Shown: positions 2,703 to 57,936 of the stretch, piece after piece
Position numbering within the stretch: the first letter of the stretch is position 1
Layout of the letters: every line of letters begins with the position of its first letter
NCBI RefSeq assembly: GCF_015521605.1
Contig: NZ_WANV01000002.1
Coordinates: forward strand, 1 to 57,936
DNA length: 57,936 nt
Reading direction: 5' to 3'
Source of the DNA: Thermococcus sp.
GTDB lineage: Archaea; Methanobacteriota_B; Thermococci; Thermococcales; Thermococcaceae
The notes under the pieces: model-generated
Told to the model about the DNA's origin: nothing
The model's input: only the letters and a program-made list of their open reading frames with translations
Database searches by the model: none
Position numbers and translations under genes: made by a program

Positions 2703-4043
2703 TCAGGCCACCTCCTTTAGGGCCTCTATGAGCGCATCGACCCACTCTTTTCTCGTCGTCTCTGTGGCTGCAAAAAGCGCTGCGTTGCCCAGCTCCAGGA
2801 AGTGCTCTCCTAAGTAATAGCCACCGTGGATGTTCCTCTCAAGAAGGGCCTCATGTATCTCCCTGTAGGGCTTTTCGAACCGCACGAGAACGTCCTTGAA
2901 GTTAATCCCCTCAAAGGGAATCTCGGCGACCTCTCCCAGGCGCTTCTTGAGGTAGGAGGTGTTCTTGAGGATGACCTCTCCGAGCTCCCGGAGGCCCTTC
3001 GGGCCAAGGGTCGCGAGGTGTATCGCCGCGGCAACCGCCACCAGGGCCTCGTTTGAACAGATGTTCGAAGTCGCCTTGGCACGTCTTATGTGCTGCTCCC
3101 TGGTCTGGAGTGTCATGACGAAGGCCCTCTTCCCCTCGGCGTCTTTGGTCATTCCTATTATCCTTCCTGGCATCTGTCTTATCAGCTTCCTGTCATTTCT
3201 GACGGCGAATATTCCGGCCCTGGGGCCACCGAAGTTCATCGGGCTTCCAAAGTATGCGGCCTCTCCGACGACAATGTCGGCTCCAAGCTCGCCGGGTGCC
3301 TCAACTATGCCGAGGATAGTTGGGTCAACACCGACGACAAACAGTGCCCCAGCATCATGGGCTATCCCGCCGATCTCCCTGATGTTTTCCTCCAGAAGGC
3401 CGAAGAAGTTGGGGATCTCGATGTAAACGCCAGCGGCTCCTTCAACTGCCTCTTTGAGCTTTTCGATACTCACCTGCCCCCCTTCGTTCCAGTCGATGTA
3501 CTCAATCCGGAGTCCGGGCCCAGCAGTATAGGTTTCGAGAACCCTCTTTTTCTCCGGGCTGAGTGCCCTGGGAACTATGAACTTGCTCTTTCGGGTCACC
3601 CTGGCACTCATCAAAGCCGCTTCAGCCATAGCCGTCCCCCAGTCGTACATTGAGGCATTCACAATTGGCAGACCGACAAGCTCTGCTATGAGGCTCTGGT
3701 ATTCAAAGAGAGCCTGGAGCATGCCCTGGCTTATCTCGGGCTGGTAAGGCGTGTAGGAGGTGAGGAATTCACTCCTCTCTATTAGGTACTTGACGTGTGC
3801 CGGAACGTAATGGAAGTAAGTACCCGCACCGAGGAAACTGGGCATCTCGAGGACGGTTTTGTTTTTGGAGAGAATTTCGCTGAGCTCAAGAAAGACCTCG
3901 TACTCGCTCTTTCCCTCTGGGAGGTTGAACTCTTTGACCATTCCCTTAGGGACGTCCGAAAAGAGCTCCTCGACCGAAGTGAATCCGATCTCCCGGGCGA
4001 GCTCCTCCTTATGCGCGGCGTTAGGGAGGTAGTGCCTTCCCAT
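2703..4043 (-). CDS. gcvPA: Glycine dehydrogenase (decarboxylating) subunit 1
   Basis: This is the N-terminal half of the split glycine cleavage P-protein, which forms the heterotetramer with GcvPB. The protein starts MGRHYLPN, as the family does, and is 446 residues, close to the usual size. The start at 4043 is chosen because GAGGGTGATAAGC precedes it; the longer open frame lacks family similarity. Conserved blocks include [13 protein letters not shown] and [19 protein letters not shown]. It is the first gene of the gcvPA-gcvPB unit and has a TATA-like box at 4094-4103, which implies a short leader of about 25 bases. Confidence 0.95.
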
Positions 4044-49054: not shown

Positions 49055-51208
49055 ATGGTCACGCTCATCATAGCCGAGAAGCCCAACGTTGCGAGAAAAA
49101 TCGCCTATGCCTTGGCGGAAGGCAAACCGGTTAGAAAGACCATCGGCAAGGTTCCCTACTACGAATTCACCCGCGACGGGAAGAGGATAATAGTGGCTCC
49201 AGCGGTTGGGCACCTCTTCTCGCTCGCTCCGAAGACCAAAACCTACGGTTATCCCGTCTTCGACATTGAATGGGTCCCCGTTTATGTTGCGGAGAAGGGG
49301 AAGGGCTACGCCAAAGATTACATAAAAGCCCTCGCTACCCTCGCCAAGCGTGCCGATGAGTTCGTAGTTGCCTGCGACTACGACACTGAGGGGGAGGTCA
49401 TCGGCTACACCGCCCTCAAGTACGCCTGCGGCGTTGACCCGTCCCGGGCGAAAAGAATGAAGTTCTCTGCACTCACCAAAAAAGATCTTCTCAGGGCCTG
49501 GTACAACCTTGAACCGACTATAAACTTCGGAATGGCCGATGCCGGAATAGCGCGCCACGTCCTCGACTGGTACTGGGGCGTGAACCTTTCCCGTGCCCTG
49601 ACATCGGCAATAAAGCGCGCCAGCGGCAAATGGCAGGTTCTCTCTACTGGCCGCGTTCAGGGGCCGACCCTCAAGTTCCTCGTTGACAGGGAAAAGGAGA
49701 TTCAGAACTTTAAGCCGACACCCTACTGGGTCATAAAGATGCTCCTTGAGAAAAACGGGGAGCAGTACACGGCGGTCTATGAAAAGGAGCGCATACTCGA
49801 TGAAAACGAGGCAAAGCGCATCGTCGAAGAGGCAAGGAGGGGCCCCGCCTTCGTTGAGAAGGTTGAGGTTAAGCGGCAGAATAGGCATCCGCCCGTGCCC
49901 TTCGATCTCGGAACCCTCCAGAGGGAGGCATACTCCGCCTTTGGATACTCCCCGAAGAAGACTTTGGAGATTGCACAGCGCTTGTATGAGCGTGGAGTCA
50001 CGAGCTATCCCCGCACCTCATCACAGAAGCTCCCCAAGAACCTCAACTTCCGCTCCATCCTCCAGAACCTGGCGAAGCTACCCGAGTACAAGCCCTTCGC
50101 CCACGAGCTCCTGGGTAAGGAGAGGCTCAAGCCCGTCGAGGGAAAGAAGGACGACCCCGCTCACCCGGCCATCTATCCAACGGGGGAGCTTCCAAAGCCC
50201 GGCGAGCTTACCAAGGACGAGGCCAACCTCTACGACCTCATCGTCAGGCGCTTCTTGGCACTCTTTATGGAGCCAGCCGTCAGGGAAATAATGAAGGTTG
50301 TCATAAACTCCAACTCCCACCGATTCATCCTGAGCGGGGCCAGGACCGTGAAGGAGGGCTGGCTGAAGGTCTACGGCAAGTACGTCAAGTTCGACGAGGT
50401 TATCCTTCCCGCGTTTAGGGAGGGCGAGCCGGTAAAGGTCATCCAGATAAAGCGCGAAAAGAAGAAAACGAAGCCTCCCGCGAGGTATTCCCCAGCCGCC
50501 GTCATCAAAAAGATGGAAGACCTCGGCATAGGGACCAAAGCGACCCGCGCCCAGATCCTTGAGACCCTCTACAGCAGGGGCTACATCGAAGGCAAGAGGA
50601 AGATAAAGGTCACCCCGTTAGGCATGCGCGTCGTTGAGGCGCTGGAGAAGAACGTGCCCGACATAGTCAGTGTCGAGCTGACGAAGGCATTCGAGGAGAA
50701 GATGGAGGACATAATGGCCGGAAAGGCCGACAGAGAAGGTGTCATCGAGGAGAGCAAGAACCAGCTCATCAAGATTCTGAAGGTCTTCAAGGAGAGGGAA
50801 CTCGACATAGGGAAAATGCTCATGGAGACGACCGGAACAGGCACAACTACCTCAAAAGCCGCCGCCAGAAAAGCCGGTGCGGTAAAGGAGCTCAGTGAGG
50901 AAGAGGAGAAGGCCGTCAAAAAGGCCGTGAATAAAGACGAGAGGGGCCCCCTCGTGGTGGGCAAGTGCCCCAAGTGCGGCGGTGACCTCGTGGTGAGGTA
51001 CAACAGGAGAACCGGTAAGCGATTCGTCGGCTGTTCCAGCTGGCCCAAGTGCAACGTCACATACCCGCTCCTCCAGAGGGGCGAGATAATTCCCACGGAC
51101 AAGACCTGCTGCGGCGGCGCTCCGGTCGTAAAAATCAGGGAGAAGGGCAGGGAGTACGAAATTTGTCTGGACATGAACTGCAGGGAGTGGAAGAAGGGTA
51201 AGAAATGA
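49055..51208 (+). CDS. topA: Type IA DNA topoisomerase (topoisomerase III)
   Basis: It relaxes or decatenates DNA through a 5'-phosphotyrosine link. The Toprim domain is at the N-terminus ([31 protein letters not shown]), and the active-site Tyr318 is in [12 protein letters not shown]-terminal part from residue about 630 carries zinc-ribbon motifs ([22 protein letters not shown]). Length is 717 residues, typical for archaeal topoisomerase III. The start is supported by the TATA spacing. It ends directly at the convergent geranylgeranyl reductase. Confidence 0.94.
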
Positions 51209-54338: not shown

Positions 54339-54429
54339 TGGGCATGAAAATGTCAAAACAGCCCCTTTACGTTCACTGTTTTACGGAAAAGTTATAAATC
54401 CCCCGGCCCAGCCTATGGTGGGTGAAGCG

Positions 54430-55362
54430 ATGGCACTCAGGGTAGGCGGGGTTAACGTTCTTTTCACCGGGGAGCTTGATGATGGCTTTGAGGAGGGTTT
54501 CAGGGGACTTTTTGCGCGACGCTACCTCCCCGATGTCTCCGATCCGGATGGTGATGTCCACGTTGTCGTGGAGCGCTTCAAGGGTGAAGAGTTCAGGGTC
54601 TTCAGTGCGGCTTACGACCACATGGGGCGCGACGAGTACAAGATAGAGTCCCGCGTCCCCTCTGCATACGGAAACGAGGCACCGATTTTCTTTATCCTCC
54701 AGGCGGCCGCCAGAGCCGGTGCCAAAACAGGGAGGATGTTCATAACGGACTCCGTTGCTGTCGTTCCCCCGAACGGCAAGGCAGTTCTTTTCGTCGGTTA
54801 TCCCCACACGGGGAAGAGCACAATGTCGGTTCTGGCAATGGCCAGCGGTCTTCCCGTTCTCAGCACCGAGAACACCGTTGTTGAGGTTAGGGGGGAGGGG
54901 CTCTACATAGTTGGTGGTACTGAGGTTCTCGTGTATGACCCCCGGGTGGAGGGCATCTATGACGTCAGGATCCCATACGATGAACAGACGAGAAGCGGAT
55001 ACCGGATAAAAGACCTCAGACAGGATTCCCGGAGGAGAAAGCTTCTTGAGCGCGGTGTTGAGATAGGCATGATAGTGCTCCTTCACGCGGCCTTCAACTG
55101 TATGGAGGCCAGTTTTTCCCGGATACGCGGGAGAAAAGTCAGAAAGACCCTGTGGTACTTCTCAACTGCGCTCATGAAGGGGCTTGATTACTACGAACCG
55201 GCACCCCTGCACGTCCCGGTAAGTGATGAGATAGCCCAGAACCTGCGGCTGTTCCTTGAGACCGCATCTAGCAACTACTCCGACAGGATGTTTGAGGCCT
55301 TTGGAAACCACCGGGCGGTCTTTGAGAGGGTTATTGAGATGGAGCTCGCACAGAAGGGGTAG
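54430..55362 (+). CDS. HprK-like P-loop kinase domain protein
   Basis: A P-loop GYPHTGKST at residues 123-131 in the middle of the protein, followed by LPVLSTENTVVEVRGEG, has the arrangement of HPr kinase and PEPCK-like kinases, in which the loop follows a beta sheet. The first 120 residues (DGDVHVVVERFKG, SVAVVPPNGKAVLFVG) and the tail are unlike known families. No HPr is expected in an archaeon, so the substrate is open. ATG 54430 follows GGGTGAAGCG. The stop is 20 bases from the CRISPR array. Confidence 0.55.
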   Translation: MALRVGGVNVLFTGELDDGFEEGFRGLFARRYLPDVSDPDGDVHVVVERFKGEEFRVFSAAYDHMGRDEYKIESRVPSAYGNEAPIFFILQAAARAGAKTGRMFITDSVAVVPPNGKAVLFVGYPHTGKSTMSVLAMASGLPVLSTENTVVEVRGEGLYIVGGTEVLVYDPRVEGIYDVRIPYDEQTRSGYRIKDLRQDSRRRKLLERGVEIGMIVLLHAAFNCMEASFSRIRGRKVRKTLWYFSTALMKGLDYYEPAPLHVPVSDEIAQNLRLFLETASSNYSDRMFEAFGNHRAVFERVIEMELAQKG

Positions 55363-55382
55363 TCTCAATTCTTTGCCCTATA

Positions 55383-57936
55383 CTTTCAATTCTCCTAGAG
55401 TCTTATTGCAACGAGGAACTCATGAGACTCCCTCCAGGACTCCAGATCCCCTTTCAATTCTCCTAGAGTCTTATTGCAACGCACGGTGGACGACGGACAG
55501 GCTTTAGAAATTCCAAACTTTCAATTCTCCTAGAGTCTTATTGCAACGGCTACAACCAGTCAGGAAGCTAAAAGAAGTGCCTAACTTTCAATTCTCCTAG
55601 AGTCTTATTGCAACGATTTTAGCCTCGCGTTCTCCTGGGTCAGCTCGCTAACTTTCAATTCTCCTAGAGTCTTATTGCAACGGCGAGGCCCTTGAGGACG
55701 CAGGTATAACAGGGCTGTCTTTCAATTCTCCTAGAGTCTTATTGCAACTTTGTTTGGATTATAGCAGGCTCAGTAACGCTGAACCCTTTCAATTCTCCTA
55801 GAGTCTTATTGCAACCAACATAAAGAGGGACGATAACACGACCATACCAGTCCTTTCAATTCTCCTAGAGTCTTATTGCAACCAGCCGTATCATTCTGCA
55901 CATCAACAGTGATAGTTTCAGCTTTCAATTCTCCTAGAGTCTTATTGCAACACATCATCCGCGAAGTCCTCACTGACCCGGAAGAACTCTTTCAATTCTC
56001 CTAGAGTCTTATTGCAACTAGAGTTGGGCGAATTGTTTTCTCTCTAAGGCTTTTGGTTTCAATTCTCCTAGAGTCTTATTGCAACTGCTTGAGGTGGAGG
56101 TTCTAAAGGGTGGGGAGCGTGGGTTTCAATTCTCCTAGAGTCTTATTGCAACCGAAGCCTCCTTGAGAGGTGCTTTCTTTTCAAGAATCTGTTTCAATTC
56201 TCCTAGAGTCTTATTGCAACATCAGCGAGGAGCTGAGCGCGCTTCGCGGGGCTCATCGTTTCAATTCTCCTAGAGTCTTATTGCAACGCCGGTGAGCTTT
56301 GACTGGTACGGGCACGGGCACGCGGTTTCAATTCTCCTAGAGTCTTATTGCAACGTCCAGTCGGGGATGCCCTTTCCGATCGAGATGTTCGTTTCAATTC
56401 TCCTAGAGTCTTATTGCAACCGAAGACAGGGAGTGTGTAGATGTCGCTGATGTTGCGTTTCAATTCTCCTAGAGTCTTATTGCAACGGCCGCCAAGGTGC
56501 TCGATGCCCATCAGGGTGAACACGTTTCAATTCTCCTAGAGTCTTATTGCAACACTGTATAAAGAGGTCTTTTGCCAGCGGGCGCATTTGTTTCAATTCT
56601 CCTAGAGTCTTATTGCAACCTGCCCATGCTGCTGCGAATATCGCAATAAGATAAGTTTCAATTCTCCTAGAGTCTTATTGCAACGATGGATTCAATGCTA
56701 GAGTGTACGACCGTAAAACAGTTTCAATTCTCCTAGAGTCTTATTGCAACACCATTGCCAGGGCACCGACGTAGATCGCGAGACCGTGTTTCAATTCTCC
56801 TAGAGTCTTATTGCAACTTATACTTTGGACTTAATAGGGGCCTCTCAAGACATCAGTTTCAATTCTCCTAGAGTCTTATTGCAACGCCCTGGCGGCGTCA
56901 ATGTACGTCTTCGCCCGTACGGAGTTTCAATTCTCCTAGAGTCTTATTGCAACCCAGGGAGCCCCCATCGGAGAGGTCGAGAAGGCAAAGGTTTCAATTC
57001 TCCTAGAGTCTTATTGCAACCTCACAGGAGCCGCCCTACTGATAGCGGCAGGCCTCAGTTTCAATTCTCCTAGAGTCTTATTGCAACCCGCGTGCACCGG
57101 CATTATACCTTACGCCCACGTCCGTTTCAATTCTCCTAGAGTCTTATTGCAACTTATGACGCCTTCGGCCACTTTGCTAACGCTGATTTTGTTTCAATTC
57201 TCCTAGAGTCTTATTGCAACGTTCCAAAGCTTCTTCGGGCATTTCGGCCACTACTAGTTTCAATTCTCCTAGAGTCTTATTGCAACCTACCAAGTGACCG
57301 ACGCGGGATTTATACGGCTTAAGGGTTTCAATTCTCCTAGAGTCTTATTGCAACTGGGAGGCGGGGAAGCAGAAAGTCCGGGCGGGCTTTTGTTTCAATT
57401 CTCCTAGAGTCTTATTGCAACCGGCTCCTGGCTGGGGGTTGCTTTTCGGCAGTTGTCTAGTTTCAATTCTCCTAGAGTCTTATTGCAACGCCCTCGCTCC
57501 TCGACCAAACTTTTACCGGGTATAGGTTTCAATTCTCCTAGAGTCTTATTGCAACTACCCCCCAAGATACCTATTGTCCACCTGCCTTTCCAAGGTTTCA
57601 ATTCTCCTAGAGTCTTATTGCAACTATTCCTCGGAGCTGGAGCCTCTCAGGTATCCGAGTTTCAATTCTCCTAGAGTCTTATTGCAACCCTGCGTGTGTT
57701 TAAATCACCCGCACCCCAGCCGTGTTTCAATTCTCCTACAGTCTTATTGCAACAAAGTGGTTGAGAACATAAAGAAGATAGTTGATGTAAAGTTTCAATT
57801 CTCCTAGAGTCTTATTGCAACCTTAGCCTTGAGGTCACCGAGCTTCGCAACGAACTCGTTTCAATTCTCCTAGAGTCTTATTGCAACCCCGGGGGAAGGC
57901 TTTGGGCCCTCTCCCCGGTTTACCGTTTCAATTCTC
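55383..57936 (-). CRISPR. CRISPR array, at least 38 repeats, continues past the right edge
   Basis: A 30-bp repeat ([C/G]TTTCAATTCTCC... TCTTATTGCAAC on the plus strand) occurs 38 times complete, from 55383, plus 12 bases of another at 57925. The reverse complement, GTTGCAATAAG...ATTGAAA[G/C], has the Pyrococcus/Thermococcus form with an 8-base crRNA tag ATTGAAA[G/C], so transcription is leftward. The 38 spacers are 34-39 bases (mostly 36-38). Repeats 1-10 (55383-56018) start with C, repeats 11-38 and the partial one with G. One repeat (57724-57753) has C for G at 57739. No leader is inside the window. Confidence 0.98.

Follow-up and report, generated by a model that had tools for sequence, protein, structure and literature searches.

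CRISPR arrays grow by duplication of the leader-proximal repeat at each acquisition, and in the type I-E system of E. coli the last repeat base derives from the PAM. Many clusters of CRISPR repeats end at their 3' side in a conserved GAAA(C/G) (Kunin et al. 2007, PMC1896005), and repeat polymorphisms near the trailer end of arrays have been reviewed (PMC8047081), with an example described in S. agalactiae (PMC4466440). The Thermococcus array analyzed here carries the same two GAAA(C/G) ends, but both are found inside one array, where they form two blocks. As with trailer-end polymorphisms, older and newer repeats differ and the boundary between them is kept by polar growth; however, it is usually the terminal repeat alone that decays, whereas here ten intact repeats share the older base. 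The variable base is likewise the last repeat base beside the spacer, as in the E. coli type I-E system, but it follows the array and not the incoming DNA, as nearly shared spacers in another Thermococcus genome (G013) indicate. Compared with the 30-nt-repeat arrays of Thermococcus and Pyrococcus that accompany type I-A (Csa) cas genes, we see no essential difference, as the repeat and the position of the leader by the cas operon are the same and the flank, read from two protospacers, is likewise CCN-like.

Two blocks of repeats in one array

The window, meaning the whole stretch of 57,936 nucleotides that was analyzed, makes up contig C2, one of the 42 contigs of a draft Thermococcus genome of 2.03 Mb. 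Its right-hand end is occupied by a CRISPR array that is transcribed leftward and interrupted by the contig end at position 57936. The features of the region are as follows.

54415..55362, plus strand: conserved Thermococcus gene at the trailer end, without a Pfam match, marking the syntenic array locus in other species
55363..55382, no strand assigned: trailer flank TCTCAATTCTTTGCCCTATA, which begins like an incomplete repeat and contains 11 nt that also occur in the leader on contig C30
55383..57936, minus strand: CRISPR array of 38 full 30-nt repeats and a partial 39th, with its leader outside the window, most likely on contig C30
55383..56018, minus strand: the ten oldest repeats and their spacers, repeat ending ...GAATTGAAAG, predicted crRNA handle AUUGAAAG
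56019..56055, minus strand: 37-nt spacer of the first switched unit, protospacer search without a match
56056..57936, minus strand: newer repeats, 28 full and one partial, repeat ending ...GAATTGAAAC, predicted handle AUUGAAAC, with the same form in the eight leader-adjacent repeats of C30
56288..56324, minus strand: spacer whose protospacer, found in another Thermococcus genome, matches at 36/37 and has CCG as its 5' flank (CCN PAM)
57724..57753, minus strand: repeat 36, with the array's single internal change (G to C on the plus strand at 57739), which was not passed on to other repeats

Parsed directly, the window yields 38 complete repeats of 30 nt and a 39th of which the contig end leaves the first 12 bases. 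The repeats are regular and near-identical and are separated by unique spacers of 34-39 nt (mean 36.9 nt), which places the array in the 30-nt repeat class of Thermococcus. The first plus-strand letter is C in repeats 1-10 (55383-56018) and G in repeats 11-38 (from 56056), and it is G also at the visible start of the partial repeat 39, in full agreement with an earlier note on this DNA that had counted ten and 29 repeats with these coordinates and first letters. Read in the crRNA sense, the repeat is GTTGCAATAAGACTCTAGGAGAATTGAAA followed by G in the older units and by C in the newer ones, such that the ten older repeats end in ...AUUGAAAG and the newer repeats (28 full and one partial) in ...AUUGAAAC; the 3' end is GAAAG in ten repeats and GAAAC in all others. 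The remaining 29 positions are uniform, with a single base of repeat 36 (position 57739) as the sole exception, and it is not credible that a clean 10/28 split would arise by chance among independent repeats. Each repeat tags, in the crRNA sense, the spacer to its left, giving nine G-tagged units with a spacer (repeats 2-10) and making 56019-56055 the first C-tagged spacer. The mature crRNA is predicted to start 8 nt before the repeat end, and the place of the switched base in an 8-nt 5' handle, as read by the earlier note, would follow from the repeat class and from Cas6.

The trailer flank has features of its own. Positions 55372-55382, immediately before the first repeat, read TTTGCCCTATA, and the same 11 nt recur in the leader on contig C30; the string is preceded in the flank by the repeat-like TCTCAATTC. 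Together the two are possibly a relic of an older leader or repeat, and TTTGCCCTATA was not found beside the trailer-most repeat in any of the other arrays examined. Elsewhere in the window, the TopA gene (49055-51208) is uninterrupted, and in about ten other Thermococcus genomes the TopA ORF is about 1,240 aa long and contains, close to residue 320, a large insertion in frame, as an intein would give.

Genome context and the growing end of the array

A search for the repeat across the genome, with up to 3 mismatches allowed, returned matches at four contig ends only (C2, C21, C30 and C34). Two of these are trailer ends, namely the window itself, with its ten old-form repeats followed by new-form ones, and C21, in which all repeats are of the old form. 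The other two are leader ends, with eight repeats on C30, all of the new form, and nine on C34, all of the old form. Since either pairing of trailer and leader ends leaves at least one array with a switch, the switch is real and an assembly artefact is ruled out. On C21, the final two complete spacers (39 nt) are identical, reflecting either tandem duplication of a unit or an artefact of the contig end (L009).

The leader on C30 both carries repeats and adjoins a cas operon, which comprises a cas2-like sequence, cas4, cas1, cas4, cas6, cas3 (both parts), csx9/cas8a2, cas5a, csa2 and a second cas6, and is a type I-A set. The two contigs are not joined in the assembly; however, the gene at 54415-55362 and the cas2 side of the leader border one array in many other Thermococcus genomes, and by this synteny C2 and C30 are most likely parts of the same array. 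As the leader side is the growing end, the ten G-tagged repeats are the oldest. The leftward reading of the array and its division into an older and a newer section, both proposed in the earlier note, are borne out by this arrangement, as is the suggestion that the array was continued from a different leader-proximal repeat, given that the leader end on C30 carries the new form. The note had also called for a search for a second array in the genome carrying the other repeat form; the genome-wide search revealed one other array, which is of the old form throughout, and import of the new form from it is thereby ruled out.

The last repeat base across Thermococcus

Repeat forms were counted over 61 genomes, and full arrays were obtained from many of them, giving a set of 82 distinct Thermococcus arrays with 2,184 repeats. 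Both forms are present in many species according to the genome counts, and the leader-most base of the 82 arrays is G in 53, C in 24, T in 3 and A in 2. Clean block switches at the last repeat base were identified in ten of the 82 arrays, among them G to T after 7 units (G005), G to A after 13 (G056), T to C after 10 (G012) and C to G (G046). With 12 of the 34 block switches, this base is the most switch-prone column of the repeat. A switch of the same kind is common in the genus, and the case in the window is ordinary within Thermococcus.

At the syntenic locus, 17 species or MAGs have a readable state, and the leader-end base is C in five of these (the window included) and G in 12. The two forms are scattered over a tree of the neighbouring gene, in which well-supported branches force at least two changes. 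The G004 copy of the locus switches several times, reading A C GGGG CCCCC G... from the trailer, which indicates that the base can switch repeatedly and return to an earlier state, though for the most part in blocks. The earlier note had held that C and G variants scattered through the array in other strains would speak against its reading; the G004 array partly has this character, yet its variants too are grouped mostly in blocks. Two further peculiarities were seen in G004. After the last repeat of its copy of the locus (L136, G004:C50, about 3654-3944) the usual leader start (AGGGCGG...) is missing while cas2 and cas4 still follow; the leader-proximal part seems to have been deleted, and spacer acquisition may have been lost. 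In addition, a spacer in the G004 array (L138, G004:C50:63002-63040) resembles a tRNA gene fragment, with 84-86% identity to loci in several genomes; its target may be an element that uses a tRNA gene as its integration site.

The manner in which the last base changes also differs from that of the other columns. Beyond the four trailer-most repeats, it underwent 10 block switches and no singleton changes, compared with 20 and 10 at the other columns (Fisher p=0.04), and its changes are mostly transversions (7:3 versus 5:25 at the other columns; p=0.003, with events not fully independent); resting on few events, some of them linked, both statistics are suggestive only. If all repeats mutated equally, we estimate that unpropagated singletons should exceed block switches by roughly half the array length. 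Given the 10 blocks without singletons and the excess of transversions, plain point mutation fits poorly, and a change tied to acquisition, or recombination, fits better. The one notable leftover of the genus-wide pattern is this tendency of the last base to change in blocks and, for the most part, by transversion. In three arrays from different species (L065, L068 and L099), the fourth repeat counted from the trailer ends in a lone T, which may be a coincidence.

Inheritance of the base and a probable change in place

Arrays inside one genome can be fixed for different last bases. In G013, near-identical spacers that share their 5' start lie beside G in two arrays and beside C in a third (L051/L054 and L052/L054), indicating that an array normally takes this base from its own leader-proximal repeat and not from the DNA that is captured. 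A PAM-derived last base, as in type I-E, is ruled out as the normal rule by these spacers common to G- and C-type arrays. Within the window, the spacer at 56288-56324 has a repeat base of C and a protospacer flank base of G; here too the last base does not follow the flank.

Because the leader-proximal repeat is duplicated at each acquisition, a single change in it gives a clean block. The account that we consider likely is a heritable change in the leader-proximal repeat that was copied to all later units and was close to neutral. The array beside the type I-A cas operon would have grown at its right-hand (leader) end until, after about ten repeats, the leader-proximal repeat that serves as the template for duplication acquired C in place of G as its last base (crRNA sense), and each later acquisition would have copied the changed repeat, leaving a clean boundary between old and new. 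The change would have been nearly neutral, as CRISPR repeats are known to end in either base at their 3' side and the position would face a degenerate PAM base. Directly observed are the division into two blocks, the side on which the leader lies, the G form at the trailer end as against the switched form at the leader end, and the presence of both forms at the syntenic locus elsewhere. An origin in the leader-proximal repeat itself, whether by mutation or in the course of acquisition and not via imported array DNA, is favoured by the G-form arrays that the nearest cas1 relatives (G033, G031 and G022) carry at the syntenic locus and by the single base that differs across the boundary; the old form of the sister array and of most syntenic arrays fits this reading as well. 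The neutrality of the switch is what we would expect from the nature of the two bases.

Alternative origins of the switch

Recombination between arrays is the main rival to a change in place. Two array segments would have been joined by homologous recombination within a repeat, the newer section being imported with its leader side, for example from a C-form strain, and we regard this as possible but rather unlikely. Other arrays provide the arguments for such an event, as the base reverts to an earlier state in G004 and G012 (G-C-G in both), switches together with another repeat position in two arrays (L019 unit 14 and L093 unit 6) and adopts new states that match the standing G/C polymorphism; unit duplications also occur inside arrays, and the presence of the syntenic locus in many species makes homologous exchange possible. 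In the window, however, only one base changes and spacer lengths are alike in the two sections (p=0.16), while the genome's other array is all of the old form and the closest cas1 relatives carry G-form arrays. Moreover, no spacers from either section were found in a different array or strain among the arrays compared and 60 Thermococcus genomes. The joining of two arrays, which the earlier note had offered as its second possibility, is thus not established by the spacer comparisons or by the genome's other array.

A change in place could also have come from the acquisition reaction. In the most specific form of this idea, which we judge improbable, Cas1 would have cleaved the repeat one base too soon on its spacer side, and the last base would have been taken from the incoming DNA and then copied. 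The last base sits exactly at the spacer-side integration point, and its rank as the most switch-prone column (12 of 34 block switches) and its transversion-rich changes in blocks, free of interior singletons, would all be in keeping with such a slip. An early cut, however, predicts that the switch spacer is shorter by one, and the mean deviation over 12 events was -0.19 +/- 0.37; with no spacer-length signature, a one-base integration slip was rejected. Furthermore, first spacer bases are spread evenly over A, C, G and T, yet G or C make up most of the new states, and the switch spacers gave no protospacer from which the base could be read, with none convincing in 61 genomes and no match for the window's own switch spacer in an exact scan of viral_contigs. 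Quite unlikely, in our estimate, is the broader proposal that the last base in Thermococcus is occasionally rewritten at acquisition by imprecise spacer-side integration or repair, such that its evolution would proceed by inherited jumps alone and record rare integration errors in the time line of the array.

PAM, handle and the effect of the switch

Convincing protospacers were found for two spacers of this genome (36/37 and 35/39), with 5' flanks CCG and CCT. These flanks agree with a CCN-type PAM, as read from two protospacers only, one of them belonging to the genome's other array, and the switched base would face the N. In a large survey, the -1 PAM base was not predictable from the repeat (PMC8482600). 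An adaptive switch, altering PAM recognition, Cas6 processing or self/non-self discrimination via the crRNA handle, is highly improbable: the switched base belongs to the predicted 8-nt handle, and three target-flank bases opposite the handle end matter for activation of P. furiosus Cmr (PMC7192623), but all four bases are found at leader ends in the genus and differing arrays coexist in one genome, every handle derives from the repeat adjoining its spacer and so matches the array itself, leaving self-protection unchanged, the PAM base opposite the switched position would be degenerate, no match to Cmr2 was found in this genome, and the repeat folds weakly in both forms (-0.2 and -0.6 kcal/mol).

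No functional effect of the switch is supported, and a nearly neutral change in the leader-proximal repeat probably leaves immunity unaffected. The earlier note, mostly right on the history of the array, over-interpreted its function in suggesting an effect on PAM or Cas recognition, as the base would face the N of a CCN-type PAM, all four bases serve at leader ends across the genus, and C and G are both published 3' ends (PMC1896005). By analogy with the P. furiosus Cmr complex, which is sensitive to three bases flanking the target RNA (PMC7192623), a subtle effect of the base in type III systems is conceivable.

Taken singly, the case matters little; it provides a datable boundary in one array and illustrates the role of the leader-proximal repeat as master copy. 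If the last base truly changes only in inherited blocks, array end-bases could mark the lineage of arrays, and the precision of repeat cutting by Cas1-Cas2 or the frequency of array recombination could be tested at the switch points. Only this genus-wide behaviour of the last repeat base is worth following further.

Comparison of the spacers with phages yielded only chance-level matches to a Pseudomonas phage, and the first 12 spacers had no match among plasmids. The spacer at 56288-56324 additionally has a 93% match over 30 bases in the chromosome of its own genome (G000:C17:51657-51686), which is possibly a degraded self-target or an integrated element related to one in G048.
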